Source: Apostichopus japonicus | Lineage: Eukaryota; Echinodermata; Holothuroidea; Aspidochirotida; Stichopodidae | Reading direction: 5' to 3' | NCBI RefSeq assembly: GCF_037975245.1 | Contig: NC_092568.1 | Coordinates: 29,045,501 to 29,109,500 of the forward strand | Length of the DNA stretch: 64,000 nt | In this document: positions 28,176 to 51,573 of the stretch, one piece after another | Layout of the letters: every line of letters begins with the position of its first letter | Numbering within the stretch: the first letter of the stretch is position 1 | Translations under genes and position numbers: made by a program | Notes under the pieces: generated by a model | Databases searched by the model: none | Told to the model about the DNA's origin: nothing | What the model saw: the letters and a program-made list of their open reading frames with translations, nothing else

Positions 28176-30612
28176 TTTGGTTTATATTATGATTGGTTTG
28201 TCGGCAACGTTCGATTTAGCGTTTGTGGATAGCAGATATACGTCTTACTGTAGGTAGCCCAGGTCAACTATATATTTATATGTATATATATATATATGTG
28301 AGTACCGGTACTTGAAAATTGTTAGCCAAGTTATGAAAGGAACCCTGATTTAATATCTGTATGTGGGAGTAAAGATGGCTTTATGCATACTAGAAGTGCT
28401 ACTAAAAACCAGAATGGTTGTGGACTGGTTTATTTTATGTCACTTGACAAACAAACAAGTGACTATACGAACAAATCACCGATCATGCATATATAAGTAA
28501 ATATCTTTCGATATACTCGCTATTGGAGTCTCCTTAATGTTGCACACTTTATACTTTGACTTCATTTGGAGAAAGCTATACGGGGTTAAAATTTGTGTAA
28601 AAATTGATGGGTACCAAAAGTTATGACGTAACGTGGTTATCATTGGTAGCAAGAACGGTGTATTATGCTGTAGGCCTATATCAGCTCCCTGCATGTGTAC
28701 TATATCACAAGTGTTAACACAGAAGGGAAAAGAACTAATATTTATGATACTGAATCGTACAGGTATAGGATACCGGCCATTATATTACTCCGTGATTCTC
28801 TAATTGGACTGATGCAAGAATTGCATGAGCGTTTTGAATTCAAATGTAAAAATCGTAGTCATAATAATCTTACATAAAGAGAGAAAAGAGCATTACATCA
28901 TATTATTATTAGTGAAAGTACATTCTGCCGATACGCAAATCTACTGGGTCATCGCACATAACGTCCTTGCAGACCGGGGAACGCAATAACATGGGCTACG
29001 GGGTGGGGCGGGGAGGGGTGCATGTGGGAAGAATTTCCCAACATTTTCCCTTCACCTTCCCAGTTGCAACCACCCCAACCAGATCTGGTACTTATCCAAA
29101 ATTTGCGTCTAAGTTATCTTACTTGTAGAAAAATTTCTGAAGGGGAAGGTTCACCCCTCTCCTTAGACCCCTCCCCCTTATCAGTGTTTTATTTTTCCCC
29201 AAATATACCGTACCCTCTAGTTTTGCCCACCAGATTGCTTAGGCTGGTGCCGCCACTGAAAAAAAGGTTGACTGGGGTGAGCCTTTAAAGGCATTGAAGA
29301 CTCGCCCAAACCGCGTGCCGCCCTCTGAAAAAAAGGTAACTTTCCGTTGCTTGCAAGTTAAGTTTTTTCTTGTCGCTACAAAATGCAGACAGTAATGAAA
29401 CGTGATACCTTGTTATCTTTTATCTGGGATGTCCATCGCTGCTATGTACACTGTGTTGTGGGTTTTGACGTAGCTGCATGTATTGACTGTATACTAGTGT
29501 CTAATTACCGACGGTAGCAAGCTGTGTGTGTATTTTCTGGGATCGATGGTGGTGTCTAACACTTCTGTTTTACCTCATTCGTAACTAGGTAAGATTACCG
29601 GAATCAGACGTTTGTTTGTGCGCGAGTTTTCACTCCATTTAAAGTAACGTGTGTGTGAGCATGTGCGTGTTTAAAAAACACCTGCATGTGTATGTTTGAG
29701 AACAAACGAGTGTGTCACGCAGTCCTCCTAAACCGTAAGGTAAGTTGATTTCAAACTTGTGTGTATATGCTTGAGATGTAGTGCCTCTAAAGGTATGACG
29801 TCATAGGATCAGAGGTCAGGATTCAAATGTTGACAATCAGCAATTTGACCATTATGCGCGTATGAAAATGACACAAAGGCCGAAACAGTTCAAACTTACT
29901 AGGGACATCAGACTCTGCAAGTTAACAATGCATTAAATAATGGAAACACTAAAGGTCACGTGATCGAAGGAAGTCAAATGTCAAATTTATGGGGGAAAAG
30001 CGTTTCTCAGCCTTCCCCTTAGCCGTAAACCTGAAAACTTCAGCGTGTTCACATAGTTCGTGGTGTCTGATAGCCAAAGATGGAGCACAACGAAAAGTCA
30101 GAAAGAGGAATAATTACCCCTATAGTTCCATCTGTGGAATTTATCTCCGAGCACTAAAGGTGTCCAGGTACCCGGCGAAGCCGTGTGAAGCTGGACTATA
30201 CCCATCCATACTGATACAGTAAAGTCCAATTTGAGTGAGAGTGCACAGCCTTTAAAGCTAACAATATGCGCTAGCAAACTCGGAATGAGAACGAAATCAG
30301 TTCGTATAGGTCGAGAGAACAAAAAGCTGTGCTACGAAACAGGAATACTTGTATTGTAGTTCGGCCCTTTCCTTTGCTAAGTTACTGCCAAAGACTATGT
30401 CGTCGAAAGCGCACGCATGTATATATTTTCGTTGCGAATGAGCCGCTTTATTATCGTTAGGTATGACTGTTATATTATTATTAGAGTCCCTAAAGTACGA
30501 CCAGAACCGTACCGTTCTGGGAATGTCACTTTTTGATATTTGGAATATTGCTTTAAAGGACAACTGGTCACAGTAGCCTAAAACTATTTTCTCCATGACA
30601 ACGCGCCTCATT
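28176..30612. other. Intergenic, 5' side of the carrier gene
   Basis: No exon could be supported. 29120-29258 resembles the right part of the hAT-type element at 39885 (CCTTAGACCCCTCCCCC motif, ending GTGCCGCCACTG), but the matching left end is missing, so it is a truncated fragment. The rest is unremarkable. Confidence 0.4.
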
Positions 30613-30616
30613 GAAG

Positions 30617-30657
30617 GTAGCAGCCACTAAGAGCAGACACTAACAGCAGCCACTAAG
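30617..30657 (+). repeat. Left outer inverted repeat of the 20-kb locus
   Basis: Built from 13-bp subrepeats (CAGCCACTAAGAG-type, three copies). It matches 50873-50913 in reverse complement with a few mismatches. A weaker match (TTGAA, then CCT further out) extends a few bases beyond on both sides. Confidence 0.75.
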
Positions 30658-30769
30658 AAAAAAAGGACAGTAAGACATGACACACAGTACTACAACTGCG
30701 GTCGTGTGTGTTTGTTATAACCAGTGTTACCAGCGACAGTTGACGAAAAAACGCTAGATTGGCGAAAAT

Positions 30770-33700
30770 ATAACCCCAAACGCGCTGTATATACTTAATG
30801 TGTAATGATCAGAAAAATGTTAATTTTTTTCAAATTCGATTAACTTTAGTTATGGAGCCTACTAGTATGTCCGGTTAGCACCATATTAAAGTAGACAGGT
30901 TCATCTTTCACGTGGTATACCTCTACTATCGGTAACAAAAATGATTTCTTGACCAAAAGTGGCCTTAAAAATTTTAACCCCGATACGGACATCACTGAAC
31001 GCGCTGTATCTAAGGTGTAATGATCTAAAAAATTATTTTTTCCCTTCAAAATCGATTAACTTTAGTTATGGAGCCTACTAGGATGTCCGGTTAGCACCAC
31101 ATTAAAGTACAACGGTACTTCTTTCACGTGGTATACCTCTACCATCGGTAACAAAAATGATTTCTTGACCAAATATGGCCTTAAAGTTTTAACCCCGATC
31201 CGGATATCTCTAAACGCGCTGTATATACGTAATGTGTAATGATCATAAAAATGGTTAATTTTTTTTTTTTCAAAATCGATTTACTTTAGTTATGGAGCCT
31301 ACTGGCATGTCCGGTTAGCACCACATTAAAGTAGAAATGTTCCTCTTTCACGTGGTATACCTCTACTATCGGTAACAAAAATGATTTCTTGACCAAAAGT
31401 GACCTTGAAGTTTTAACCCCGATACGGATATCTCTAAACGCGCTGTACATCTGAGGTGTAATGATCCAAAAAATTATTTTTTTTCTTTCTTCAAAATCCA
31501 TTAACTTTAGTTATGGAGCCTACTAGGATGTCCGGTTAGCACCACATTAAAGTAGAAAGGTTCCTCTTTTACGTGGTATACCTCTACTATCGGTAACAAA
31601 AATGATTTCTTGACCAAAAGTGACCTTGAAGTTTTAACCCCGATACGGACATCTCTAAACGCGCTGTATATATACGTTATGTGTAATGATCCGAAAAATT
31701 TATGATTTTTATTTTTTTCAAAATCGATTAACTTTAGTTATGGAGCCTACTAGGATGTCCGGTTAGCACCACATTGAAGTAGACAGGTTCATCTTCCACG
31801 TGTCATACCTCTACTATCGGTAACAAAACTGATTTTTTGACCAAAAATGGCCTTAAAGTTTTAACCCCGATCCGGACATCTCTAAACGCGCTGTATATAC
31901 GTAATGTGTAATGATCAGAAAAATGGTTAATTTTTATTTTTTCAAAATCGATTAACTTTAGTTATGGAGCCTACTAGGATGTCCGGTTAGCACCACATTA
32001 AAGTAGAAAGGTTCCTCTTTTACGTGGTATACCTCTACTATCGGTAACAAAAATGATTTCTTGACCAAAAGTGACCTTGAAGTTTTAACCCCGATACGGA
32101 TATCTCTAAACGCGCTGTACATCTGAGGTGTAATGATCCAAAAAATGATTTTTTTTCTTTCTTCAAAATCCATTAACTTTAGTTATGGAGCCTACTAGGA
32201 TGTCCGGTTAGCACCACATTAAAGTAGAAAGGTTCCTCTTTTACGTGGTATACCTCTACTATCGGTAACAAAAATGATTTCTTGACCAAAAGTGACCTTG
32301 AAGTTTTAACCCCGATACGGACATCTCTAAACGCGCTGTATATATACGTTATGTGTAATGATCAGAAAAATTTATGATTTTTATTTTTTTCAAAATCGAT
32401 TAACTTTAGTTATGGAGCCTACTAGGATGTCCGGTTAGCACCACATTGAAGTAGACAGGTCCATCTTCCACGTGATATACCTCTACTATCGGTAACAAAA
32501 ATGATTTTTTGACCAAAAATGGCCTTAAAGTTTTAACCCCGATACGGACATCTCTAAACGCGCTGTATAATGTGTAATGATCAGAAAAATGTTAATTTTT
32601 ATTTTTTCAAAATCGATTAACTTTAGTTATGGAGCCTACTAGTATGTCCGGTTAGCACCACATTAAAGTAGAAAGGTTCCTCTTTTACGTGGTATATCTC
32701 TACTATCGGTAACAAAAATGATTTCTTGACCAAAAATGGCCTTAAAGTTTTAACCCCGATCCGGACATCTCTAAACGCGCTGTATATACGTAATGTGTAA
32801 TGATCAGAAAAATGGTTAATTTTTATTTTTTCAAAATCGATTAACTTTAGTTATGGAGCCTACTAGTATGTCCGGTTAGCACCATATTAAAGTAGACAGG
32901 TTCATCTTTCACGTGGTATACCTCTACTATCGGTAACAAAAATGATTTCTTGACCAAAAGTGGCCTTAAAAATTTTAACCCCGATACGGACATCACTGAA
33001 CGCGCTGTATCTAAGGTGTAATGATCTAAAAAAATTATTTTTTCCCTTCAAAATCGATTTACTTTAGTTATGGAGCCTACTGGCATGTCCGGTTAGCACC
33101 ACATTAAAGTAGAAATGTTCCTCTTTCACGTGGTATACCTCTACTATCGGTAACAAAAATGATTTCTTGACCAAAAGTGACCTTGAAGTTTTAACCCCGA
33201 TACGGATATCTCTAAACGCGCTGTACATCTGAGGTGTAATGATCCAAAAAATTATTTTTTTTCTTTCTTCAAAATCCATTAACTTTAGTTATGGAGCCTA
33301 CTAGGATGTCCGGTTAGCACCACATTAAAGTAGAAAGGTTCCTCTTTTACGTGGTATACCTCTACTATCGGTAACAAAAATGATTTCTTGACCAAAAGTG
33401 ACCTTGAAATTTTAACCCCGATCCGGACATCTCTAAACGCGCTGTATATATACGTTATGTGTAATGATCAGAAAAATTTATGAGTTTTATTTTTTTCAAA
33501 ATCGATTAACTTTAGTTATGGAGCCTACTAGGATGTCCGGTTAGCACCACATTGAAGTAGACAGGTTCATCTTCCACGTGATATACCTCTACTATCGGTA
33601 ACAAAACTGATTTCTTGACCAAAAATGGCCTTAAAGTTTTAACCCCGATACGGACATCTCTAAACGCGCTGTATATACGTAATGTGTAATGATCAGAAAA

Positions 33701-36700
33701 ATGGTTAATTTTTATTTTTTCAAAATCGATTAACTTTAGTTATGGAGCCTACTAGGATGTCCGGTTAGCACCACATTAAAGTAGAAAGGTTCCTCTTTTA
33801 CGTGGTATACCTCTACTATCGGTAACAAAAATGATTTCTTGACCAAAAGTGACCTTGAAGTTTAAACCCCGATACGGACATCTCTAAACGCGCTGTATAT
33901 ACGTTATGTGTAATGATCAGAAAAATTTATGACTTTTATTTTTTTCAAATTCGATTAACTTTAGTTATGGAGCCTACTAGGATGTCCGGTTAGCACCACA
34001 TTAAAGTAGGAAGGTTCATCTTTCACGTGGTATACCTCTACTATCGGTAACAAAAATGACTTCTTGACCAAAAATGGCCTTAAAGTTTTAACCCCGATAC
34101 GGACATCTCTAAACGCGCTGTATATACGTAGTGTGTAATGATCAGAAAAATGGTTAATTTTTATTTTTTCAAAATCGGTTAACTTTAGTTATGGAGCCTA
34201 CTGGCATGTCCGGTTAGCACCACATTAAAGTAGAAAGGTTCATCTTTCACGTGATATACCTCTACTATCGGTGACAAAAATGATTTCTTGACCAAAAGTG
34301 ACCTTGAAGTTTTAACCCCGATACAGACCCTTCTCTAAACGCGCTGTATATACGTTATGTGTAATAATCAGAAAAATTTATGATTTTTATTTTTTTCAAA
34401 ATCGATTAACTTTAGTTATGGAGCCTACTAGGATGTCCGAATAGGACCACATTAAAGTAGAAAGGTTCATCTTCCACGTGATATACCTCTACTATCGGTA
34501 ACAAAAATGATTTCTTGACCAAAAGTGGCCTTAAAGTTTTAACCCCGATACGGACATCTCTAAACGCGCTGTATATGTGTGTAATGATCAAGAAAATGGT
34601 TAATTTTTATTTTTTCAAAATCGATTAACTTTAGTTATGGAGCCTACTGGCATGTCCGAATAGGACCACATTAAAGTAGGAAGGTTCATCTTTCACGTGG
34701 TATACCTCTACTATCGGTAACAAAAATGACTTCTTGACCAAAAATGGCCTTAAAGTTTTAATCCCGATACGGACATCTCTAAACACGCTGTATATACGTA
34801 ATGTGTAATGATAAGAAAAATGGTTAATTTTTATTTTTTCAAAATCGATTAACTTTAGTTATGGAGCCTACTGGCATGTCCAAATAGGACCACATTAAAG
34901 TAGACAGGTTCATCTTTCACGTGATGTACCTCTACTATCGGTAACAAAAATGATTTCTTGACCAAAAGTGGCCTTAAAGTTTTAACCCCGATACGGATAT
35001 CTCTAAACGCGCTGTACATCTGAGGTGTAATGATCCAAAAAATTATTTTTTTTCTTTCTTCAAAATCCATTAACTTTAGTTATGGAGCCTACTAGGATGT
35101 CCGGTTAGCACCACATTAAAGTAGAAAGGTTCCTCTTTTACGTGGTATACCTCTACTATCGGTAACAAAAATGATTTCTTGACCAAAAGTGACCTTGAAA
35201 TTTTAACCCCGATCCGGACATCTCTAAACGCGCTGTATATATACGTTATGTGTAATGATCAGAAAAATTTATGAGTTTTATTTTTTTCAAAATCGATTAA
35301 CTTTAGTTATGGAGCCTACTAGGATGTCCGGTTAGCACCACATTGAAGTAGACAGGTTCATCTTCCACGTGATATACCTCTACTATCGGTAACAAAACTG
35401 ATTTTTTGACCAAAAATGGCCTTAAAGTTTTAACCCCGATACGGACATCTCTAAACGCGCTGTATATACGTAATGTGTAATGATCAGAAAAATGGTTAAT
35501 TTTTATTTTTTCAAAATCGATTAACTTTAGTTATGGAGCCTACTAGGATGTCCGGTTAGCACCACATTAAAGTAGAAAGGTTCCTCTTTTACGTGGTATA
35601 CCTCTACTATCGGTAACAAAAATGATTTCTTGACCAAAAGTGACCTTGAAGTTTAAACCCCGATACGGACATCTCTAAACGCGCTGTATATACGTTATGT
35701 GTAATGATCAGAAAAATTTATGACTTTTATTTTTTTCAAATTCGATTAACTTTAGTTATGGAGCCTACTAGGATGTCCGGTTAGCACCACATTAAAGTAG
35801 GAAGGTTCATCTTTCACGTGGTATACCTCTACTATCGGTAACAAAAATGACTTCTTGACCAAAAATGGCCTTAAAGTTTTAACCCCGATACGGACATCTC
35901 TAAACGCGCTGTATATACGTAGTGTGTAATGATCAGAAAAATGGTTAATTTTTATTTTTTCAAAATCGGTTAACTTTAGTTATGGAGCCTACTGGCATGT
36001 CCGGTTAGCACCACATTAAAGTAGAAAGGTTCATCTTTCACGTGATATACCTCTACTATCGGTGACAAAAATGATTTCTTGACCAAAAGTGACCTTGAAG
36101 TTTTAACCCCGATACAGACCCTTCTCTAAACGCGCTGTATATACGTTATGTGTAATAATCAGAAAAATTTATGATTTTTATTTTTTTCAAAATCGATTAA
36201 CTTTAGTTATGGAGCCTACTAGGATGTCCGAATAGGACCACATTAAAGTAGAAAGGTTCATCTTCCACGTGATATACCTCTACTATCGGTAACAAAAATG
36301 ATTTCTTGACCAAAAGTGGCCTTAAAGTTTTAACCCCGATACGGACATCTCTAAACGCGCTGTATATGTGTGTAATGATCAAGAAAATGGTTAATTTTTA
36401 TTTTTTCAAAATCGATTAACTTTAGTTATGGAGCCTACTGGCATGTCCGAATAGGACCACATTAAAGTAGGAAGGTTCATCTTTCACGTGGTATACCTCT
36501 ACTATCGGTAACAAAAATGACTTCTTGACCAAAAATGGCCTTAAAGTTTTAATCCCGATACGGACATCTCTAAACACGCTGTATATACGTAATGTGTAAT
36601 GATAAGAAAAATGGTTAATTTTTATTTTTTCAAAATCGATTAACTTTAGTTATGGAGCCTACTGGCATGTCCAAATAGGACCACATTAAAGTAGACAGGT

Positions 36701-37940
36701 TCATCTTTCACGTGATGTACCTCTACTATCGGTAACAAAAATGATTTCTTGACCAAAAGTGGCCTTAAAGTTTTAACCCCGATACGGACATCTCTAAACG
36801 CGCTGTATAACTAATGTGTAATGATCCAAAAAATGATTTTTTTTTCTTCAAAATCGATTAACTTTAGTTATGGAGCCTACTAGGATGTCCGAATAGGACC
36901 ACATTAAAGTAGAAAGGTTCCTCTTTCACGTGGTATACCTCTACTATCGGTAACAAAAATGATTTCTTGACCAAAAGTGGCCTTAAAATTTTAACCCCGA
37001 TACGGACATCTCTAAACGCGCTGTATATACGTAGTGTGTAATGATCAGAAAAATTGTTAATTTTTATTTTTTCAAAATCGATTAACTTTGGTTATGGAGC
37101 CTACTAGGATGTCCGAATAGGACCACATTAAAAAAGAAAGGTTCCTCTTTCACGTGGTATACCTCTACTATCGGTAACAAAAATGATTACTTGACCAAAA
37201 GTGGCCTTAAAATTTTAACCCCGATACGGACATCTCTAAACGCGCTGTATATACGTAGTGCGTAATGATCAGAAAAATGGTTAATTTTTATTTTTTTCAA
37301 AATCGATTAACTTTAGTTATGGAGCCTACTGGCATGTCCAAATAGGACCACATTAAAGTAGACAGGTTCATCTTTCACGTGATATACCTCTACTATCGGT
37401 AACAAAAATGATTTCTTGACCAAAAGTGGCCTTAAAGTTTTAACCCCGATACGGACATCTCTAAACGCGCTGTATAACTAATGTGTAATGATCCAAAAAA
37501 TGGTTAATTTTTATTTTTTCAAAATCGAATAACTTTAGTTATGGAGCCTACTAGGATGTCCGAATAGGACCACATTAAAGTAGACAGGTTCATCTTTCAC
37601 GTGGTTAACCTCTATTATCGGTAACAAAAATGATTTCTTGACCAAAAGTGACCTTAAAGTTTTAACCCCGATACAGACCCTTCTTTAAACGCGCTGTATA
37701 TACGTTATGTGTAATGATCAGAATTTCTTTTTTTTTTCAAAATCGATTAACTTTAGTTATGGAGCCTACTGGCACGTCCGGTTAGCACCACATTAAAGTA
37801 GAAAGGTTCCTCTTTCACGTGGTATACCTCTACTATCGGTAACAAAATGATTTCTTGACCAAAAGTGGCCTTAAAGTTTTAACCCTGATACGGACATCTC
37901 TAAACGCGCTGTATATACGTTATGTGTAATGATCCAAAAA
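30770..37940 (-). repeat. Left satellite array, 224-225-bp unit, ~32 copies
   Basis: Head-to-tail copies of a unit are recognised by GTTATGGAGCCTACT, TACCTCTACTATCGGTAAC and CTAAACGCGCTGTATA. Relative to the right array this is the reverse orientation. Units vary in two diagnostic places: GGTTAGCACCAC or GAATAGGACCAC, and GACATCTCTAAAC or GACCCTTCTCTAAAC. Many units contain the E-box-like palindrome CACGTG. A higher-order duplication of 1,791 bp (8 units) is nearly exact: 33199-34989 and 34990-36780. An open frame of about 70 codons per unit ends in a stop in each copy, so the array is not a long coding repeat. Confidence 0.96.
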
Positions 37941-38660
37941 ATGATTTATTCCTGTGTGGGCAATTGGGCCTTTGAGGTTGCTTCATGGGTCCCGTTACAG
38001 TTAAGATATGAAGTCGTTGGTATTTTTGGATACCGCAATGTCCAATAGGGCCAACACCTCTAAACGAATTATCCTGCTTTTTGTTAACATAATCAAATCA
38101 CGTGTGGGCCATGGGCCCTTGAGGCCATGGTAGAGGATAAATTTGTAGTCATAGGTTTTTCTTTTTTTAATACCCGACAACCTTATGGTCCAGCGCCAAT
38201 AAAAAGAAATCATACTGCTCTCTTTTCACATGATTAAATCATGTGTGGGCCACGGGCCCTTTCTGGCTACTGTATGGGTCCTGGTACATCATAAAGTTGT
38301 TGTTATTAGTATTTTTGGATACCCCATTTTCCAAAGGGTCCAATGCCACTTTAAGAATCACCCTGCTCTCATTTCACATAAATGAATCATATATGGCCCA
38401 CAGGCCTTTTTTGGTTGCTGCCTGCATGGGCCCATGTACATCATAAAGTTGCTGTAATTAGTATTTTGGGACACCCCAATGTTTAACTGGTGTACCGCAA
38501 AATGAATTATCCTTGTCTCTTTTCGCATGATTAATACCATTTTGATGGGCCCTTCTGCAGGGCCCGTCACAAGGTACGATTACTGTCATTGCTATGGTTC
38601 TAAAAGTATCTTACTATGAGTTTTATCCAGCGCTTTTGCCTTGCGTCTTTCACATGATTA
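37941..38660 (+). repeat. Inner repeat family, ~145-150-bp unit, about five degenerate copies
   Basis: Units start around TGTGGGCCA-GGGCC, continue through CATCATAAAGTTG and TATTTTTGGATACC, and end near TTTCACATGATTAAATCA. They are more diverged from one another than the 225-bp satellite units. The first two have inverted counterparts at 38956-39318. Confidence 0.75.
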
Positions 38661-38955
38661 AATCAACATTTGAGCCCCCTATTTTAATTGAAGGCACATT
38701 TAGACTACATACACGCACATTGTGTGGCACGGCAGCAACACATAACCTTGAATCCTGGTCATAAACGGACATAAGCTGCCCATTAAACCCTCTGTCTCTT
38801 TTCAAATCTTCTGGGTTCCCGGTCCAGTTGAGTATCGAATCGATGCAGACTGGGTTGAAAGTAAACGCGGGCCAAGTGCAGTGCAATGCAATAAACTAGG
38901 CTCACATCACTGCAAGATGCGAGCCATCATAATGACGTCACAGGTCGATTTACTG
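38661..38955. other. Spacer at the centre of the palindrome
   Basis: Non-repetitive sequence between the two inverted inner-repeat blocks. No gene is recognised. Confidence 0.5.
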
Positions 38956-39318
38956 CAAATTTATCCTCTACCATGGCCCAGACAACCTCAAGGGCCCATG
39001 GCCCACGCGTGATTTGATCATGTGCAAAGACACAAGGATTATTCTATAGTTGCATTGGACCCTTTATACATTGGAGAAACCAAAAAATACCATCTACGAC
39101 TTTTATCTGTACCGGGCCCCAGGCAACAGCCATAAAGTGCTCATGGCCCACACATGATTTGATTATGTTAACAAAATCAGGATAATTCTTTTAGAGGTGT
39201 TTGCCCTATTGGACATTGCGGTATCTAAAAATACCAACGACTTCATTTTTAACTGTAACGGGGCCCATGCAGCAACCTCAAAGGCCCAATTGCCCACACA
39301 GGAATTAACCAGTTTTTG
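38956..39318 (-). repeat. Inner repeat family, inverted copies
   Basis: Reverse-complement copies of the units at 37941-38150, with one extra unit inserted at about 39031-39150. The block ends in a 225-bp satellite fragment (GGATCATTACACATAACG at 39323-39340), mirroring the left junction at 37912-37940. Confidence 0.75.
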
Positions 39319-39529
39319 GATCATTACACATAACGTATATATATGTTGAATTTGACATGTTGATAGACGTAATGACATATTGGTATTTTGTCTCGATATG
39401 TTCATATGGAATTGTAACATGTTGATATCGAATTGGACATATATATTAACTTGGACACTCCACTTTCTTTTTCGACATTTATGGAACGTTTGGCTCTCCG
39501 TACTCTTCGACTGTCTTTGTGTTATGTTT

Positions 39530-39883
39530 TCACTTAGTTTTGTATGAACTGATCATCTGATCACTGTATCGTCTCTGTATTCCAATCAAGTCTTGGTAAT
39601 AAACAGAAAGTAATTCATCAATTCTTTTCATGTTGCGATCACTCAGCTGATTAGATTTAAGAACTTTCATTCTCGATTCAGCATGACCAATTGTTCGTGG
39701 TACCGAAACTTTACGAACGTTTCTGGTAATACTATTTATATCTACATCTATATTAGTATGTCGGTTCAAGTCACCGAGAAGTAACCCAGACCAAAAAGCA
39801 GATGACGGTAATAAAACAGTCTCCAATTCTTTCATAAGTACTGGAGAGTAAAATAGATTGGGATCATACATTTGTTCTTGCAT
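39530..39883 (-). pseudogene. C-terminal fragment of a transposon-like protein, disrupted
   Basis: The minus-strand frame has a strong protein-like composition: LLPSSAFWSGLLLGDLNRH, later GHAESRMKVLK, then an Arg/Lys/Tyr-rich tail and stop. A tryptophan plus LLGDLxRH followed by an E-x-x-x-K-x-x-K stretch recalls the C-termini of large transposon-encoded proteins in invertebrates; this is a resemblance from memory, not a verified match. The frame is cut by the hAT-type insertion. On the far side (40903 onward) it continues for only a few codons before a TAG that could be a splice acceptor (ACACTTAG). It is a broken gene in any case. Confidence 0.45.
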
Positions 39884-39884
39884 T

Positions 39885-40894
39885 CACTGGCGGATCCAAG
39901 GGGGGGGGGGCCAAGGGGGGCCATGCCCCCCCCCCCAAAGGTGAGCAAAAAAGTGTTTCCGAACATCCGCTAAATCGTATGATTGGAAATTTAAAAAATC
40001 GAGAGGAATAGCAGTGGTAGACTAGTCTAAACCTTTTCGTTTTCTGGTTTAAGATTAAATGCAGAGCTCTCAACTGACCCGCGATTCGCGGGAATTAGAC
40101 CCGCAGTCTAACACCCAAACCCGCTGACCCGCACAAGCGTCCGAAAAAACCGCATTGTAATTGTCAAGTATACATAAAAAAAATTGCATCGAATTTTGAC
40201 TTAGCAACCATCATTTCTTTAGCATTTAGCATAATAGAGTATAAAACCTCCTTTACAGCATCATTTGAACCTTTGAATTGGGGCGAGCAGCGAACATTTT
40301 CATGCCACGGGAAAGAATGAATTATCACCTACTATTCAATTTATTGATGTTACACAAAAAAAAATGTATATTTCTCGGAAAATGTTGGGTGACAAAAGCC
40401 TTTCTAAGTGCCACCATTTTACATGTAGGCATCACCAGGATTCAAACAAAATTCAATAGGGGAGGGGGACACCCCCTCCCCTTATACCCCTCCCCCAGGA
40501 CGGCGATTCGTGGCATGGACCAGCATTTGCCTTCTCAAGAGTTGGGAGCTATGTAAATGTATGAGCATGAGGATTTACAGTTTAACACCATTTTGCAGTT
40601 ACAGGCTGGTTGTAAGAAATTTATAATCTATGAGAAATAAAATTTCTTGAGAAAGATGATCCCAACTTTGTTTTATAAATATTTTAGAAAAATTACACCT
40701 GGGAAACATTTTTTTTAGAAGTAAATTAACATCACCATTGTACACTTTTGTCGCACCAAATTGCATCTGAGGGCATTCAGCAATAGAAAATTTTCCAAAG
40801 GGGAGGGGGGCACCAAATCCCCTTAGACCCCTCCCCCATATCACTCTAATGCCACTTTGGCCCCTCCCAAACAGAGGCCCTGGATCCGCCAGTG
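39885..40894. mobile_element. hAT-type element, GGCGGATCCA family, 1.0 kb
   Basis: Left end CACTGGCGGATCCA, right end TGGATCCGCCAGTG, exact inverted repeats. Flanking 8-mers CTTGCATT (39877-39884) and CTTGTATT (40895-40902) match at 7 of 8. G-runs and C-runs lie just inside the left end. CCTTATACCCCTCCCCC and CCTTAGACCCCTCCCCC motifs lie inside. No transposase is seen. It interrupts the protein fragment at 39530-39883. Confidence 0.9.
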
Positions 40895-41407
40895 CTTGTA
40901 TTTGATATGCTACTGGATGTAACTAAGTGTGAATATAGGGTTTGTCATGTCTCATAGAGAGTCTGTTTAACTTATAAGACGTTTTATTGTTGTGATAATA
41001 TTACAAATTATACTTTTACAAAGAGGTAATGAGAAGAGAGATTAATATCGTCAGTCATTCTTTAGAACCTCAAGAACATACTGCAGGATGATTCGTACTA
41101 GTTAACAAAAGTATCCGATCGTGTGTTAAATGTACAATGTATTCCACACAGACTTCATGTTGGTTATATGTGGTCTTATGGTACGATGTGAAGATTTTCT
41201 TGTCATGCCTCAAAAAGGTAAATGACTAACTTCTGTTGAAAGAAAATACAGTACGACGAAAAGTTATCAATTTTATTTGATTACATATTTTGTCTATATA
41301 GTCTGATATTTCGGTACAGGTGGAGCACAGAAGTAGATTTGATACAAACAGTAGCTATGGAGCTCAAATATTCAGTTTGTTCCGACAAGAAGGACAAAAT
41401 TGAATCA

Positions 41408-44400
41408 TAATTAAATCTAATCAAGAAATCAGTTTTGTTAGGGTATCGGGGTTAAAACTTTAAGGTCACTTTTGTTCAAGAAATCATTTTTGTTACCGAT
41501 AGTAGAGGTATACCACGTAAAAGAGGAACCTTTATACTTTAATGTGGTGCTAACCGGACATCCTAGTAGACTCCATAACTAAAGTTAATCGATTTTGAAG
41601 AAAGAAAAAAATCATTTTTTGGATCATTACACCTTAGATATACAGCGCGTTTAGAGATGTCCGTATCGGGGTTAAAACATTAAGGCCACTTTTGGTCAAG
41701 AAATCATTTTTGTTACCGATAGTAGAGGTATACCACGTGAAAGAAGAACATTTCTACTTTAATGTGGTGCTAACCGGGCATGCCAGTAGGCTCCATAACT
41801 AAAGTTAATCGATTTTTTTAAAAAAATAAAAATTAACCATTTTTCTGATCATTACACATTACGTATATACATCGCGTTTAGAGATGTCCGTATCGGGGTT
41901 AAAATTGTAAGGCCATATTTGATCAAGAAATCATTTTTGTTACCGATGGTAGAGGTATATCACGTGAAAGAGGAACCTTTCTACTTTAATGTGGTCCTAT
42001 TCGGACATCCTAGTAGGCTCCATAACTAAAGTTAATCGATTTTGAAAAAAATAAAAATCATAAATTTTTCTGATTATTACACATAACGTATATACAGCGC
42101 TTTTAGAGATGTCCGTATCGGGGTTAAAACTTCAAGGTCACTTTTGGTCAAGAAATCATTTTTGTTACCGATAGTAGAGGTATATCACGTGAAAGAGGAA
42201 CCTTTCTACTTTAATTTGGTGCTAACCGGACATACTAGTAGGCTCCATAACTAAAGTTAATCGATTTTGAAAAAATAAAAATTAACCATTTTTCTGATCA
42301 TTACACATTACGTATATACAGCGCGTTTAGAGATGTCCGGATCGGGGTTAAAACTTTAAGGCCATTTTTGGTCAAGAAATCATTTTTGTTACCGATAGTA
42401 GAGGTATACCACGTGAAAGAAGAACATTTCTACTTTAATGTGGTGCTAACCGGGCATGCCAGTAGGCTCCATAACTAAAGTTAATCGATTTTGAAAAAAT
42501 AAAAATTAACCATTTTTCTGATCATTACACATTACGTATATACAGCGCGTTTAGAGATGTCCGGATCGGGGTTAAAACTTTAAGGCCATTTTTGGTCAAG
42601 AAATCATTTTTGTTACCGATAGTAGAGGTATATCACGTGAAAGATGAACCTGTCTACTTTAATGTGGTGCTAACCGGACATGCCAGTAGGCTCCATAACT
42701 AAAGTTAACCGATTTTGAAAAAATAAAAATTAACCATTTTTCTGATCATTACACACTACGTATATACAGCGCGTTTAGAGATGTCCGTATCGGGGTTAAA
42801 ACTTTAAGGCCATTTTTGGTCAAGAAGTCATTTTTGTTACCGATAGTAGAGGTATACCACGTGAAAGATGAACCTGTCTACTTTAATGTGGTGCTAACCG
42901 GACATCCTAGTAGGCTCCATAACTAAAGTTAATCGATTTTGAAAAAAATAAAAATTAACCATTTTTCTGATCATTACATATAACGTATATACAGCGCGTT
43001 TAGAGATGTCCGGATCGGGGTTAAAACTTTAAGGTCACTTTTGGTCAAGAAATCATTTTTGTTGCCGATAGTAGAGGTATATCACGTGAAAGATGAACCT
43101 GTCTACTTCAATGTGGTGCTAACCGGACATCCTAGTAGGCTCCATAACTAAAGTTAATCGATTTTGAAAAAAATAAAAATCATAAATTTTTCTGATTATT
43201 ACACATAACGTATATACAGCGCGTTTAGAGAAGGGTCTGTATCGGGGTTAAAACTTCAAGGTCACTTTTGGTCAAGAAATCATTTTTGTCACCGATAGTA
43301 GAGGTATATCACGTGAAAGATGAACCTGTCTACTTTAATGTGGTGCTAACGGGACATGCCAGTAGGCTCCATAACTAAAGTTAATCGATTTTGAAAAAAA
43401 TAAAAATTAACCATTTTTCTGATCATTACACATTACGTATATAGAGCGCGTTTAGAGATGTCCGGATCGGGGTTAAAACTTTAAGGCCATTTTTGGTCAA
43501 GAAATCATTTTTGTTACCGATGGTAGAGGTATACCACGTAAAAGAGGAACCTTTCTACTTTAATGTGGTGCTAACCGGACATCCTAGTAGGCTCCATAAC
43601 TAAAGTAAATCGATTTTGAAAAAAATAAAAATTAACATTTTTCGGATCATTACACATAACGTATATACAGCGCGTTTAGAGAAGGGTCTGTATCGGGGTT
43701 AAAACTTTAAGGCCACTTTTGGTCAAGAAATCATTTTTGTTACCGATAGTAGAGGTATACCACGTGAAAGAGGAACATTTCTACTTTAATGTGGTGCTAA
43801 CCGGACATGCCAGTAGGCTCCATAACTAAAGTTAATCGATTTTTTAAAAAAAATAAAAATTAACCATTTTTCTGATCATTACACATAACGTATATACAGC
43901 GCGTTTAGAGATGTCCGTATCGGGGTTAAAATTTTAAGGCCATATTTGGTCAAGAAATCATTTTTGCTACCGATAGTAGAGGTATACCATGTGAAAGAGG
44001 AACCTTTCTACTTTAATGTGGTGCTAACCGGACATGCCAGTAGGCTCCATAACTAAAGTAAATCGATTTTGAAAAAATAAAAATCAGAAATTTATCTGAT
44101 CATTACACACTACGTATATACAGCGCGTTTAGAGATGTCCGTATCGGGGTTAAAATTTTAAGGCCACTTTTGGTCAAGAAATCATTTTTGTTACCGATGG
44201 TAGACGTATACCACGTGAAAGATGAACCTGTCTACTTTAATGTGGTGCTAACCGAACATGCCAGTAGGCTCCATAACTAAAGTTAATCGATTTTGAAAAA
44301 AATAAAAATTAACCATTTTTCTGATCATTACACACTACGTATATACAGCGCGTTTAGAGATGTCTGTATCGGGGTTAAAACTTTAAGGCCATTTTTGGTC

Positions 44401-47400
44401 AAGAAATCATTTTTGTTACCGATAGTAGAGGTACATCACGTGAAAGATGAACCTGTCTACTTTAATGTGGTGCTAACCGGACATGCCAGTAGGCTCCATA
44501 ACTAAAGTTATTCGATTTTGAAAAAAATAAAAATTAACCATTTTTCTGATCATTACACACTACGTATATACAGCGCGTTTAGAGATGTCCGTATCGGGGT
44601 TAAAACTTTAAGGCCATTTTTGGTCAAGAAATCATTTTTGTTACCGATAGTAGAGGTACATCACGTGAAAGATGAACCTGTCTACTTTAATGTGGTGCTA
44701 ACCGGACATGCCAGTAGGCTCCATAACTAAAGTTATTCGATTTTGAAAAAAATAAAAATTAACCATTTTTCTGATCATTACACACTACGTATATACAGCG
44801 CGTTTAGAGATGTCCGTATCGGGGTTAAAACTTTAAGGCCATTTTTGGTCAAGAAGTCATTTTTGTTACCGATAGTAGAGGTATACCACGTGAAAGATGA
44901 ACCTGTCTACTTTAATGTGGTGCTAACCGGACATCCTAGTAGGCTCCATAACTAAAGTTAATCGATTTTGAAAAAAATAAAAATTAACCATTTTTCTGAT
45001 CATTACACACTACGTATATACAGCCCGTTTAGAGATGTCCGTATCGGGGTTAAAACTTTAAGGCCATTTTTGGTCAAGAAATCATTTTTGTTACCGATAG
45101 TAGAGGTACATCACGTGAAAGATGAACCTGTCTACTTTAATGTGGTGCTAACCGGACATGCCAGTAGGCTCCATAACTAAAGTTATTCGATTTTGAAAAC
45201 AATAAAAATTAACCATTTTTCTGATCATTACACACTACGTATATACAGCGCGTTTAGAGATGTCCGTATCGGGGTTAAAACTTTAAGGCCATTTTTGGTC
45301 AAGAAGTCATTTTTGTTACCGATAGTAGAGGTATACCACGTGAAAGAGGAACCTGTCTACTTTAATGTGGTGCTAACCGGACATCCTAGTAGGCTCCATA
45401 ACTAAAGTGAATCGATTTTGAAAAAAATAAAAATTAACCATTTTTCTGATCATTACACATTACGTATATAGAGCGCGTTTAGAGATGTCCGGATCGGGGT
45501 TAAAACTTTAAGGCCATTTTTGGTCAAGAAATCATTTTTGTTACCGATGGTAGAGGTATACCACGTAAAAGAGGAACCTTTCTACTTTAATGTGGTGCTA
45601 ACCGGACATCCTAGTAGGCTCCATAACTAAAGTAAATCGATTTTGAAAAAAATAAAAATTAACATTTTTCTGATCATTACACATAACGTATATACAGCGC
45701 GTTTAGAGAAGGGTCTGTATCGGGGTTAAAACTTTAAGGTCACTTTTGGTCAAGAAATCATTTTTGTTACCGATAGTAGAGGTATACCACGTGAAAGATG
45801 AACCTGTCTACTTTAATGTGGTGCTAACCGGACATCCTAGTAGGCTCCATAACTAAAGTTAATCGATTTTGAAAAAAATAAAAATTAACCATTTTTCTGA
45901 TCATTACACACTACGTATATACAGCGCGTTTAGAGATGTCCGTATCGGGGTTAAAACTTTAAGGCCATTTTTGGTCAAGAAATCATTTTTGTTACCGATA
46001 GTAGAGGTACATCACGTGAAAGATGAACCTGTCTACTTTAATGTGGTGCTAACCGGACATGCCAGTAGGCTCCATAACTAAAGTTATTCGATTTTGAAAA
46101 AAATAAAAATTAACCATTTTTCTGATCATTACACACTACGTATATACAGCGCGTTTAGAGATGTCCGTATCGGGGTTAAAACTTTAAGGCCATTTTTGGT
46201 CAAGAAGTCATTTTTGTTACCGATAGTAGAGGTATACCACGTGAAAGATGAACCTGTCTACTTTAATGTGGTGCTAACCGGACATCCTAGTAGGCTCCAT
46301 AACTAAAGTTAATCGATTTTGAAAAAAAAAAATATTAACCATTTTTCTGATCATTACATATAACGTATATACAGCGCGTTTAGAGATGTCCGGATCGGGG
46401 TTAAAACTTTAAGGCCATTTTTGGTCAAGAAATCATTTTTGTTGCCGATAGTAGAGGTATACCACGTGAAAGATGAACCTGTCTACTTCAATGTGGTGCT
46501 AACCGGACATCCTAGTAGGCTCCATAACTAAAGTTAATCGATTTTGAAAAAAATAAAAATCATAAATTTTTCTGATTATTACACATAACGTATATACAGC
46601 GCGTTTAGAGAAGGGTCTGTATCGGGGTTAAAACTTCAAGGTCACTTTTGGTCAAGAAATCATTTTTGTTACCGATAGTAGAGGTATATCACGTGAAAGA
46701 TGAACCTGTCTACTTTAATGTGGTGCTAACGGGACATGCCAGTAGGCTCCATAACTAAAGTTAATCGATTTTGAAAAAAATAAAAATTAACCATTTTTCT
46801 GATCATTACACACTACGTATATACAGCGCGTTTAGAGATGTCCGTATCGGGGTTAAAACTTTAAGGCCACTTTTGGTCAAGAAATCATTTTTGTTACCGA
46901 TAGTAGAGGTATACCACGTGAAAGATGAACCTTTCTACTTTAATGTGGTCCTATTCGGACATCCTAGTAGGCTCCATAACTAAAGTTAATCGATTTTGGA
47001 AAAAAACAATCATTTTTTGGATCATTACACATTAGATATACAGCGCGTTTAGAGATGTCCGTATCGGGGTTAAAAGTTTAAGGCCATTTTTGGTCAAGAA
47101 ATCATTTTTGTTACCGATAGTAGAGGTATATCACGTGAAAGAGGAACCTGTCTACTTCAATGTGGTGCTAACCGGACATCCTAGTAGGCTCCATAACTAA
47201 AGTTAATCGATTTTGAGAAATATAAAAATCATAAATTTTTCTGATTATTACACATAACGTATATACAGCGCGTTTAGAGAAGGGTCTGTATCGGGGTTAA
47301 AACTTTAAGGCCATTTTTGGTCAAGAAATCATTTTTGTTACCGATAGTAGAGGTATACCACGTGAAAGATGAACCTGTCTACTTTAATGTGGTGCTAACC

Positions 47401-50108
47401 GGACATCCTAGTAGGCTCCATAACTAAAGTTAATCGATTTTGAAAAAAATAAAAATTAACCATTTTTCTGATCATTACATATAACGTATATACAGCGCGT
47501 TTAGAGATGTCCGGATCGGGGTTAAAACTTTAAGGCCATTTTTGGTCAAGAAATCATTTTTGATGCCGATAGTAGAGGTATATCACGTGAAAGATGAACC
47601 TGTCTACTTCAATGTGGTGCTAACCGGACATCCTAGTAGGCTCCATAACTAAAGTTAATCGATTTTGAAAAAAATAAAAATCATAAATTTTTCTGATTAT
47701 TACACATAACGTATATACAGCGCGTTTAGAGAAGGGTCTGTATCGGGGTTAAAACTTCAAGGTCACTTTTGGTAAAGAAATCATTTTTGTTACCGATAGT
47801 AGAGGTATACCACGTAAAAGAGGAACCTTTCTACTTTAATATGGTGCTAACCGGACATCCTAGTAGGCTCCATAACTAAAGTAAATCGATTTTGAAAAAA
47901 TAAAAATTAACCATTTTTCTGATCATTACACACTACGTATATACAGCGCGTTTAGAGATGTCCGTATCGGGGTTAAAACTTTAAGGCCATTTTTGGTCAA
48001 GAAGTCATTTTTGTTACCGATAGTAGAGGTATATCACGTGAAAGATGAACCTGTCTACTTTAATGTGGTGCTAACCGGACATGCCAGTAGGCTCCATAAC
48101 TAAAGTTAATCGATTTTGAAAAAAATAAAAATTAACCATTTTTCTGATCATTACACACATATACAGCGCGTTTAGAGATGTCCGTATCGGGGTTAAAACT
48201 TTAAGGCCACTTTTGGTCAAGAAATCATTTTTGTTACCGATAGTAGAGGTATACCACGTGAAAGATGAACCTTTCTACTTTAATGTGGTGCTAACCGGAC
48301 ATGCCAGTAGGCTCCATAACTAAAGTTAACCGATTTTGAAAAAATAAAAATTAACCATTTTTCTGATCATTACACATTACGTATATACAGCGCGGTTAGA
48401 GATGTCCGTATCGGGGTTAAAACTTTAAGGCCATTTTTGGTCAAGAAATCATTTTTGTTACCGATAGTAGAGGTATACCACGTGAAAGATGAACCTTCCT
48501 ACTTTAATGTGGTGCTAACCGGACATCCTAGTAGGCTCCATAACTAAAGTTAATCGATTTTGAAAAAATAAAAATTAACCATTTTTCTGATCATTACACA
48601 CATATACAGCGCGTTTAGAGATGTCCGTATCGGGGTTAAAACTTTAAGGCCACTTTTGGTCAAGAAATCATTTTTGTTACCGATAGTAGAGGTATACCAC
48701 GTGAAAGATGAACCTTCCTACTTTAATGTGGTGCTAACCGGACATGCCAGTAGGCTCCATAACTTAAGTTAATCGATTTTGAAAAAATAAAAATTAACCA
48801 TTTTTTGGATCATTACACATTAGTTATACAGCGCGTTTAGAGATGTCCGTATCGGGGTTAAAACTTTAAGGCCACTTTTGGTCAAGAAATCATTTTTGTT
48901 ACCGATAGTAGAGGTATACCACGTGAAAGATGAACCTTTCTACTTTAATGTGGTCCTATTCGGACATCCTAGTAGGCTCCATAACTAAAATAAATCGATT
49001 TTGGAAAAAAAAAACCATTTTTCTGATCATTACACACTACGTATATACAGCGCGTTTAGAGATGTCCGTATCGGGGTTAAAACTTTAAGGCCATTTTTGG
49101 TCAAGAAATCATTTTTGTTACCGATAGTAGAGGTACATCACGTGAAAGATGAACCTGTCTACTTTAATGTGGTGCTAACCGGACATGCCAGTAGGCTCCA
49201 TAACTAAAGTTAATCGATTTTGAAAAAATAAAAATTAACCATTTTTCTGATCATTACACACTACGTATATACAGCGCGTTTAGAGATGTCCGTATCGGGG
49301 TTAAAACTTTAAGGCCACTTTTGGTCAAGAAATCATTTTTGTTACCGATAGTAGAGGTATACCACGTGAAAGATGAACCTTTCTACTTTAAATTGGTCCT
49401 ATTCGGACATCCTAGTAGGCTCCATAACTAAAATAAATCGATTTTGGAAAAAAAAAATCATTTTTTGGATCATTACACATTAGATATACAGCGCGTTTAG
49501 AGATGTCCGTATCGGGGTTAAAACTTTAAGGCCATTTTTGGTCAAGAAGTCATTTTTGTTACCGATAGTAGAGGTACATCACGTGAAAGATGAACCTGTC
49601 TACTTTAATGTGGTGCTAACCGGACATGCCAGTAGGCTCCATAACTAAAGTTAATCGATTTTGAAAAAAATAAAAATTAACCATTTTTCTGATCATTACA
49701 CACTACGTATATACAGCGCGTTTAGAGATGTCCGTATCGGGGTTAAAACTTTAAGGCCACTTTTGGTCAAGAAATCATTTTTGTTACCGATAGTAGAGGT
49801 ATACCACGTGAAAGATGAACCTTTCTACTTTAATGTGGTCCTATTCGGACATCCTAGTAGGCTCCATAACTAAAGTTAATCGATTTTGGAAAAAAACAAT
49901 CATTTTTTGGATCATTACACATTAGATATACAGCGCGTTTAGAGATGTCCGTATCGGGGTTAAAACTTTAAGGCCACTTTTGGCCAAGAAATCATTTTTG
50001 TTACCGATAGTAGAGGTATACCACGTGAAAGAGGAACCTTTCTACTTTAATGTGGTGCTAACCAGACATGCCAGTAGGCTCCATAACTAAAGTTAATTGA
50101 TTTTGAAG
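41408..50108 (+). repeat. Right satellite array, 225-bp unit, ~38 copies
   Basis: The same satellite as the left array in the opposite orientation. Exact 225-bp spacing is visible between consecutive units at 44293, 44518, 44743, 44968 and 45193. The same two diagnostic variants occur (GGTGCTAACCGG or GGTCCTATTCGG; GATGTCCGTATC or GAAGGGTCTGTATC), so both arms draw on a shared pool. A short block with CATTACATATAACG and an EAR-like GTTGCCGATAG variant recurs around 42960, 46340 and 47460, indicating higher-order duplications here too. Confidence 0.96.
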
Positions 50109-50320
50109 AAGAAAAAAAATATATCAATATTTTAAAACGTTTAGGCCACTTTTGGTCAAAAAAATCGGCTTTGTTACCGATAGTAGGTATACCACGTGAA
50201 AGAAGAAATTGTTTTCTTTGATTTGATGCTAACCGGACCTCCTAACTAGGTCGATAACTCAAATTAATCGATTTTAAAATAATAACACGTTTGGATCATA
50301 ACACATTACCGCGCGTTTCG
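50109..50320 (+). repeat. Degenerate outer edge of the right array
   Basis: One heavily diverged satellite unit: GGCCACTTTTGGTCAA, TACCACGTGAAAGAAG and GATGCTAACCGGACC are still readable. Edge decay of this kind is usual for tandem arrays. Confidence 0.8.
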
Positions 50321-50872
50321 AGCTAATTTTCCCATTTGCATCCCACTCCTGTTAGGATCGAACGGTTTGTAGCCATCGAATTTCAATAAATCAAAGTGTT
50401 ACTGGCTGTTTTTTCATACCACTTGTAAGAGGAATAACTTAACATCGTCATTGTACCCCTCTTGACTGTTGCATATTCTCATAAATTAATTGTTTAGACA
50501 TTTGAAAAAAAAAGAAAAAAAATGGTATAAAAATTGCCGCCATTTACGCCTTTCTCCACAAGATTTGGTAGGATCACAAGTTTCAGTTCAATATGGATGC
50601 AGATTTCGTCCACCATTAATTTCCAAAATTATATTACATGAAAGAGCAACAACTCATCTCTCATATGGTGCAATTATTGGCATTTTACAGTATTCATAGC
50701 GTTAAATATTATCGCTTTAAAACAGGTACGAAAAAGTAGCAGTCTTGTTATTGTCCGCTAATTTAGGCTGCCCTTAGTGGCTGCTGGGGATCAACTTTCC
50801 CGCCACAGCGTACCCAGCGCTCGTCACAGTGTACAAACATCAGTGGCCAACGGCGTGTAACGTTGATGTATA
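50321..50872. other. Unique segment between right array and right outer repeat
   Basis: No gene recognised. An extra copy of the TTAGTGGCTGCT subrepeat lies at 50774-50785. The left side lacks a counterpart of this segment, so the arms are not fully symmetric. Confidence 0.5.
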
Positions 50873-50913
50873 CACTATTGGCTGCTGTTAGTGGCTGCTC
50901 TTAGTGGCTGCTA
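50873..50913 (-). repeat. Right outer inverted repeat of the 20-kb locus
   Basis: Three 13-bp subrepeats of the TTAGTGGCTGCT(G/C) type, ending CTGCTAC. It is the reverse complement of 30617-30657. Confidence 0.75.
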
Positions 50914-50929
50914 CGTTCAAACAGGTTGA

Positions 50930-51573
50930 CAACGCTCAACGCGAATATTGTAATTTGCCGTTTTAGTAATCAGAAGCCCATACCATTCTAGTAGGTTCTA
51001 GGAAAGGGGAGTCTTGTCTGAAATAGAAACCGATATGTCCAAAAATGGTAACATTATTATATTATAACAATATGAATGATTGTTATCATCCAGACCCAAT
51101 GACAGGCGGTAGCAGTCCTACCTACGTAGGCTAGGTCTATACTACACATTAACATAGTCTATATGCTACATTGGGAGGAACGTTAGTTTCCGCTCAGTTT
51201 CCGCCGTGAGGCCTACATCTTTCAAGTGTCATCAAGTCGCAACTTCATCTTGAAGTAAACTTACTAATAACTGTCGATAAAACATGCTCTAGTCTAGGCC
51301 TGAATTAGTTCCTTCCTAGATTCTTCCAAAGTTGGCTAACATGATATTTCTATTTTTTTTGGGGTAGGATGGTGACTTCGAAGTTCGGCCACTTAAGACT
51401 TAAAACACCCCAAAACTAAATCTTCTGGTATAAATCATTTGAAAATATACTTCATATGGTGGGAGAATTTTGTTATAGTACGATACACGGCCAAACTTTC
51501 TTTCCTGCAAACTGTTTTCACGTTGTTTTCCAAGAAGATTCTTCGTGATTGTGGAACTGGTATTTCTTGCTAG
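50930..51573. other. Intergenic, nothing recognised
   Basis: No exon or element with clear ends. CGAAGTTCGG at 51379 resembles the ends of the small element that follows. Confidence 0.4.

Follow-up and report, generated by a model that had tools for sequence, protein, structure and literature searches.

Tandem repeats within long inverted repeats are known in echinoderms from the TU elements of sea urchins. Compared by description, the closest known systems to the locus analyzed here are Tetris, Rehavkus, and Tm1, foldback-type elements with target-site duplications of 8 to 10 bp. Tetris, from Drosophila virilis, is a non-autonomous foldback element with 8-10-bp duplications, in which terminal repeats composed of a flanking domain, tandem repeats of ~220 bp, and an inner domain surround a middle; the repeat number varies between alleles, and the repeats also occur in arrays of up to 66 copies (PMC4079207). 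Only three complete copies were found, the terminal repeats are up to 1,735 bp long, and in the authors' view an element is disrupted by large arrays (PMC4079207). Rehavkus elements combine 9-bp duplications with a satellite or minisatellite within the termini, as in Rehavkus-1_TC, which contains a 164-bp satellite in its inverted termini, is 9.5 kb long, and has arrays of mostly 5 and 8 monomers; the Rehavkus transposase includes a PHD finger, and the hosts listed are arthropods and annelids (PMC6446971, PMC10218199). Tm1, a Mutator/Foldback element of root-knot nematodes, duplicates 9 bp at its target and has short asymmetric end motifs and composite terminal repeats that include tandem motifs of 13-15 bp; its members occur both with and without a transposase (PMC3169594). 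Galileo, a member of the P superfamily, is also foldback-like, with ~210-bp tandem repeats in some of its terminal repeats and structural dynamism caused by recombination (PMC3573991). As for size, the arthropod MULEs covered by one survey are 1.4-10.0 kb long, and the longest terminal repeat among them measures 1,193 bp (PMC13359780).

Here we describe a 20-kb locus of the sea cucumber Apostichopus japonicus that is a copy of a DNA transposon, with satellite arms facing opposite ways around a center. The element is a giant, self-inverting variant of the known foldback type. It differs from Tetris, as far as the description of the latter goes, in having arms of up to 11.6 kb with intact ends, in the asymmetry of these ends, and in the presence of the center in both orientations (PMC4079207). 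As in Rehavkus, 9-bp duplications are accompanied by a satellite within the termini (definition from PMC6446971, PMC10218199). The tandem motif of Tm1 is short, its ends are CGGTTAA/CCTACCC compared with GCCTCAT/ACCTGTT here, and its transposase matches PF10551, whereas the transposase relative identified here matches no Pfam model (PMC3169594). Galileo is set apart by 7-bp duplications, terminal repeats of up to 1.26 kb, and a P-type transposase (PMC3573991). No published description of the element was found in the literature on sea cucumbers, TU elements, and two-orientation foldback centers, a search that mostly did not cover subscription papers.

Anatomy of the window copy

The window is the whole stretch of 64,000 nucleotides that was analyzed (C8:29045501-29109500). 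Positions in Table 1 and in this section are window positions, and the plus strand runs from the left to the right end of the element.

Table 1. Features of the transposon copy in the window
Feature	Position	Strand	Remark
Left target-site duplication, TGACAACGC	30596..30604	.	identical to 50927-50935
Whole element, 20,322 bp	30605..50926	+	ends common to other copies
Left terminal domain, 173 bp, starts with GCCTCATTGAAGG	30605..30777	+	only the first 45 bp recur, inverted, at the right end
Three 13-bp subterminal repeats of AGCAGCCACTAAG type, inside the terminal inverted repeat	30619..30658	+	
Left satellite arm, ~32 monomers of ~225 bp	30778..37950	-	anchors and Tandem Repeats Finder
Center, 3,492 bp, "forward" orientation at the window	37951..41442	+	inverted in other copies
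Inner repeat, quasi-palindrome with ends inverted-repeated at 93%	37951..39311	.	relatives at 82-94% identity at other loci
39-bp satellite remnant within the center, orientation marker	39303..39341	+	
Open frame of 117 codons, left from the C-terminal part of a large transposase-like protein	39530..39883	-	
MITE-like insertion nested in the center, with CACTGGCGGATCC ends and an imperfect duplication of 8 bp, CTTGCATT/CTTGTATT	39885..40894	.	
Right satellite arm, 38.8 monomers	41443..50120	+	
Right terminal domain, 806 bp: degenerate monomer first, 13-bp subterminal repeats last, final bases CAAACAGGT	50121..50926	+	
Right target-site duplication, TGACAACGC	50927..50935	.	

An initial annotation, made from the sequence of the window, had placed a locus at 30613-50915 and described it as two satellite arrays in opposite orientation, with a short inverted repeat at the outer edges and a second repeat family mirrored inside the arrays. 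The limits were about right, with the true ends lying a few bases outside (30605 and 50926), and the opposed arrays and the edge repeat were borne out. All 32 anchor matches in the left array (30778-37950) are on the minus strand, between 30917 and 37824, and all 40 in the right array (41443-50285) are on the plus strand, between 41492 and 50173; no anchor in the wrong orientation was found in either array. The unit of 224-225 bp is present in 32.2 copies on the left and 38.8 on the right according to Tandem Repeats Finder, and monomer identity is 92% in the left arm, 93% in the right arm, and 92% between the arms. The match spacing in the left arm indicates that a block of 8 monomers (1,791 bp) was duplicated in tandem. 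The second repeat is present as well, but as a single quasi-palindrome in the left part of the center (37912-38120 pairing with 39135-39341 at 93%), with 2.1 kb of other sequence between it and the right array, and not as a pair flanking the center.

The terminal inverted repeat consists of 45 bp at 93% identity and includes the 13-bp subrepeats. Only these first 45 bp of the left terminal domain recur, inverted, at the right end, and the ends of the element are asymmetric (GCCTCAT/ACCTGTT). The degenerate monomer that opens the right terminal domain is about 80% identical to the satellite. We also considered the arms as repeated terminal binding sites and found no support for this role: the 12-base core of the terminal motif, searched across the element at up to 2 mismatches, occurs only in the terminal domains, with none in the arms.

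The target-site duplication at the window copy is perfect and 9 bp long. P elements produce duplications of 8 bp. The 9 bp found here do not fit the P superfamily of the Galileo type, which has 7-bp duplications (PMC3573991). The observed length falls within the 8-11-bp range of Mutator (MULE) elements (PMC6446971).

A family of copies with common ends

In the genome (671,581,487 bases in 35 sequences), matches were found on sequences C1 to C23. The right 800 bp of the element recur in at least 37 places at 94-100% identity, and the left 201 bp recur in at least 29 places over at least 174 bp, with ~10 more over the first ~122 bp. The initial annotation had proposed a genome-wide search for the terminus joined to the satellite, and a 20-base terminal pattern indeed yielded 259 matches at up to 2 mismatches, compared with 3 for the reversed control; positions were obtained for 100 of the 259. 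A left end in matching relative order could be assigned to 28 of the 37 right ends. The remaining nine (C7:5618168, C11:11170215, C19:2866403, C14:27136618, C14:6657373, C21:17788571, C5:7751439, C1:12717822, and C16:9330586) have no partner among the known left ends, and eight of these are at 94-96% identity. A left end together with the terminal pattern allowed more copies to be paired.

For 39 end-to-end copies, we compared the 9 bases outside each end; they are identical in 31 copies, and 8 of the 9 bases agree in three more. Among the initial 37 paired copies, 30 scored 9/9 and three scored 8/9, with lower values for C14b (7), C10 (5), C8c (3), and C3b (2), whereas a control set of 1,332 mismatched left/right flank pairs had a mean of 2.4 and a maximum of 7 of 9. 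The C8c flanks reach 9/9 if the right end is shifted by 2 bp; the interior of this copy (first 1.4 kb) contained, by eye, low-complexity frames only. No clean target duplication was found for C3b, C10, and C14b. The flanks of a 2.3-kb copy at C7:14879153 match at 9/9, and no matching flank was found for an older 1.7-kb copy beside C1b. The smallest copy measures 760 bp and the largest, C3out, 36.8 kb; C3out contains a nested 19.8-kb copy, C3in. The insertion follows position 98 of the left end of C3out, and bases 90-98 of this end reappear on the far side of C3in. The duplication of C8d, a 32-kb copy known by its coordinates and ends, is of low complexity (TGTTGTTGT). The family has been recently active.

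The full sequence of 11 copies was read (window, C15a, C19, C13, C5b, C1b, C14a, C12a, C11a, C14b, and C9a), and the other copies are known by coordinates and ends. In all 11, the left arm is on the minus strand and the right arm on the plus strand, that is, long inverted repeats of tandem repeats surround a middle, the structure of the foldback class; mobility with target duplications, the other attribute of this class, is seen in the 31 copies with flanks at 9/9 and the three at 8/9 among the 39 compared. The arms span 0.7 to 11.6 kb, and the longest fully read copy is 24.5 kb. A full center of 3,487-3,526 bp, 98.5-99.9% alike, is present in nine of the 11 copies; in C1b, the center is reduced to the inner repeat, of which C14b keeps ~120 bp. 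The ends of the nested MITE-like insertion are present in all nine full centers compared, and therefore this insertion is older than their amplification.

The initial annotation had named, as evidence against a single element, the occurrence of the satellite and the inner repeat in arrangements without shared termini. For the satellite, this is not what was observed: 143 matches fell into 13 loci, and all 13 lie between paired ends of the family (best 18 of 169 candidates scored). The inner repeat, in contrast, is found at 82-94% identity at at least 10 other loci without identified termini. The satellite also adjoins unpaired right ends, for example, C7:5618168, and the data are compatible with the existence of satellite arrays outside complete copies. 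Beyond a one-off array, this is a transposon family that takes satellite arrays of kilobase length to many sites and leaves clean marks of insertion, and therefore the spread of a satellite by transposition can be followed copy by copy.

Center orientation, arm turnover, and the probable moved unit

Because the two ends differ, a flip of the center can be scored in every copy, which makes the family a natural test system for recombination between satellite arrays in inverted orientation. The direction of the center was scored by the 39-bp satellite remnant relative to the ends. Among the nine full centers, five are forward and four are inverted. A genome search for the center, in which the best 40 of 354 candidates were scored, gave 23 copies with both ends known: the center is forward in nine (window, C15a, C12a, C3in, C3out, C19, C9a, C2b, and C8d) and inverted in 14 (C16b, C11a, C9b, C14a, C1a, C21, C12c, C1c, C5b, C15b, C13, C3b, C5a, and C1b, the last by its inner repeat only). 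Two loci, C7:5621207 (one end nearby) and C21:7061313 (no ends found), were left out of this count. The published A. japonicus assembly was produced with hifiasm from PacBio HiFi reads with a mean length of 14.7 kb (PMC10344927), and reads of this average length can span most arms.

The arms are less stable than the rest of the element in the comparison of the window copy with C15a. The left domains of these two copies are identical, the right domains differ by one gap in 806 bases, and the centers are 99.7-99.9% alike, depending on the alignment, yet the left arms contain ~32 and ~51 monomers, respectively. The innermost and outermost monomers correspond in order, and the middles are reshuffled. 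Arm middles turn over fast, probably by unequal exchange, with constant edges in this one sister pair.

We consider it highly probable (about 0.9) that the locus is a non-autonomous foldback DNA transposon that relies on a transposase supplied in trans, with arms that flip the center and long arms that move with the copies. The transposase, presumably a large, MULE-like DDE protein, would recognize the two asymmetric ends, and the whole unit would be inserted with a 9-bp staggered cut, for which the duplication is observed and the enzyme is inferred. Since the arms are inverted repeats, crossovers between them flip the center along with the innermost monomers, the ends staying put, as shown by the orientation in 23 copies and by the monomer maps of one close pair; unequal exchange would probably renew the arm middles but leave the inner and outer edges, as seen in one sister pair, and copies would move with their long arms.

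The initial annotation considered the nested mirrored order hard to attribute to random satellite spread and offered either one element or one inverted-duplication event as its source. Chance is excluded because copies of this structure, bounded by the same termini, are found at many loci, and the single element is upheld by terminus-satellite junctions that recur genome-wide and by the identical 9-bp flanks at 31 of the 39 paired copies; a single inverted duplication at this locus is refuted because all 11 fully read copies share the mirrored order. A local inverted duplication of the satellite array at the window site, without mobility, would look the same if one locus alone were considered, but with the same termini and mirrored order present at other sites, within different flanks and 9-bp duplications, we give it almost no credence. 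It is also quite improbable that the copies belong to two fixed subfamilies, one for each center orientation, that do not flip recurrently. Both orientations are common (9 and 14 of 23), in line with such subfamilies, but in the tree of the nine centers the well supported closest pair, C19 (forward) and C11a (inverted), is opposite in orientation, the supported branches force at least two orientation changes, and the inner monomers moved along with the center. Orientation is no more clustered on this tree than in shuffles. C19 and C11a have an identical monomer at the inner edge of the left arm and of the right arm, respectively; the monomer at the inner edge of the right arm of C19 has its closest counterpart, at 2 differences, at the inner edge of the left arm of C11a. 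On one side, ~4 monomers take part in the arm swap, and on the other side 1-2; beyond these, like arms mostly match. The order of the monomers shared by the two copies is no better than in shuffles, and therefore the evidence lies in which arm monomers match. A crossover between inverted arms is expected to leave this pattern. Such crossovers invert the center, and a center found in either orientation is new here.

Another account, which we regard as unlikely, is that small elements inserted first and that their arms grew independently at each site, so that large units never moved as such. Consistent with this account, the number of monomers per arm differs even among the closest copies, with an overall range of 3 to ~51, and there are small copies (0.8-5 kb) flanked by good duplications. 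The monomers of the window copy and C15a bear on it in both directions. At up to 2 differences, the two copies have 14 left and 19 right distinct monomer types in common, compared with 1 and 0 across arms. The ordered chains of these monomers are 14 and 15 long, compared with 11 and 11 in the best of 100 shuffles, which argues against independent growth. At up to 1 difference, the order signal is weak and barely differs from shuffles (left chain of 9 vs a shuffle maximum of 8; right, 8 vs 9), in line with such growth, but 9 and 12 types are still in common, against few or none in seven yardstick pairs. Under the preferred reading, in which copies move with their long arms, this comparison suggests that at least 21 to 33 monomers, depending on the threshold, were present when the window copy and C15a separated. 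Together with the center and the ends, these monomers amount to a moved unit of at least ~9 to 12 kb, assuming no later exchange between the loci; later gene conversion between the sister copies could inflate this estimate. At least ~9-12 kb thus seems to have moved together, whereas, according to a review, transposition efficacy drops above 6 kb and the Pack-MULEs of one survey are not over 7 kb (PMC6431247). A broader proposal, to which we assign even odds, is that the satellite arms make this an isomerizing transposon, in which general recombination between opposite arms flips the center often, with orientation near equilibrium across the family, and that a MULE-like transposase moves units of ~10 to >20 kb, bringing finished satellite arrays of up to 20 kb to new sites. 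If so, the moved units would be larger than those that such elements are believed to transpose efficiently.

A predicted transposase relative

The 117-codon frame of the center is 30-49% identical to the C-terminal part of proteins encoded in long open frames elsewhere in the genome. These related frames include ones of 1,302 to 2,017 codons, and several score equally, as near-identical copies would. A 720-base segment of one long frame (C8:40419800-40420519) encodes 240 residues that include VFWDATG, NSDRAW, and C-x2-H. The C-x2-H motif is typical of several DDE superfamilies. Two aspartates of the 240-residue piece are 75 residues apart, which falls within the spacing of 60-76 reported for most MULE families (PMC13359780). 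Two other genomic loci match the piece at 99%. Comparison of the piece with Pfam gave no match at E values up to 10, and the best match among solved structures had an E value of 0.75. Six center frames compared with Pfam gave nothing beyond one sub-threshold match, to RgpF (E = 0.0064), for one of them; we did not adopt this assignment, the relatives of that frame being the C-terminal ends of large transposase-like frames. Judging from sequence features, the element appears to work like a Mutator-type foldback element, with a predicted transposase relative that is MULE-like in its DDE spacing.

Copies with the ends of the family yielded no intact transposase gene, and none of the 38 matches to PF10551 (MULE) or the 111 matches to PF20700 (Mutator) lies inside the 37 copies. 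The ends of the family probably once enclosed a larger part of a transposase-like gene. A decayed relative of the 240-residue piece (54%), from the catalytic region and followed by the C-terminal piece, is located inside C10 (C10:11853371-11853742), a copy with flanks that match at only 5 of 9 bases. Another decayed relative, at 44-58% and likewise followed by the C-terminal piece, is located at C8:36993258-36993939, ~7 kb from a left terminus at C8:37000719.

Relatives of the inner repeat at other loci

A genome search with the centre of the foldback element, in which 40 of 354 candidates were scored, identified relatives of the inner repeat, the quasi-palindrome in the left part of this centre, at 82-94% identity in at least 10 further loci. 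Several of these loci contain an inverted partner and part of window 39343-39502 at both outer sides. Apparently they are members of an older family of palindromic elements, which may have given rise to the core of the foldback element's centre.

Positions of inner-repeat relatives in the genome
Sequence	Position
C4	7194797
C5	11398334
C7	26807784
C9	20397073
C10	11232968
C12	8025047
C14	12163222
C20	33998290
C22	20250640
C23	1831911

Units bounded by the right end, and interrupted arms

The element's right end was also found at both sides of three units. In C14:27136109-27137423 the two flanks are perfect inverted repeats of each other (cagcctagc/gctaggctg); in C14:6656864-6658177 they match at 7/9 positions, and the third unit, C19:2866403, has the same flank. 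Such units are probably a derived repeat family.

The left satellite arm of C11a, another copy of the element family, includes a 1.8-kb gap without listed satellite; in that of a further copy, C2b, 5.8 kb (C2:29677431-29683269) lacks satellite among the matches listed (18 of 169 candidates scored).

Other repeats

One kind of match to the Mutator Pfam model PF20700, in most cases a 195-codon frame containing a single TAG, is repeated every ~170-230 kb (C19:31.25-32.38 Mb, C20:0.25-1.22 Mb, and others), as if these matches belonged to very large repeats. The window also contains a G-rich tandem array with 11.6 copies of a 99-104-bp unit (60664-62014) and 2.8 copies of a 105-bp unit (8533-8831; 97%) with inverted matches close by.
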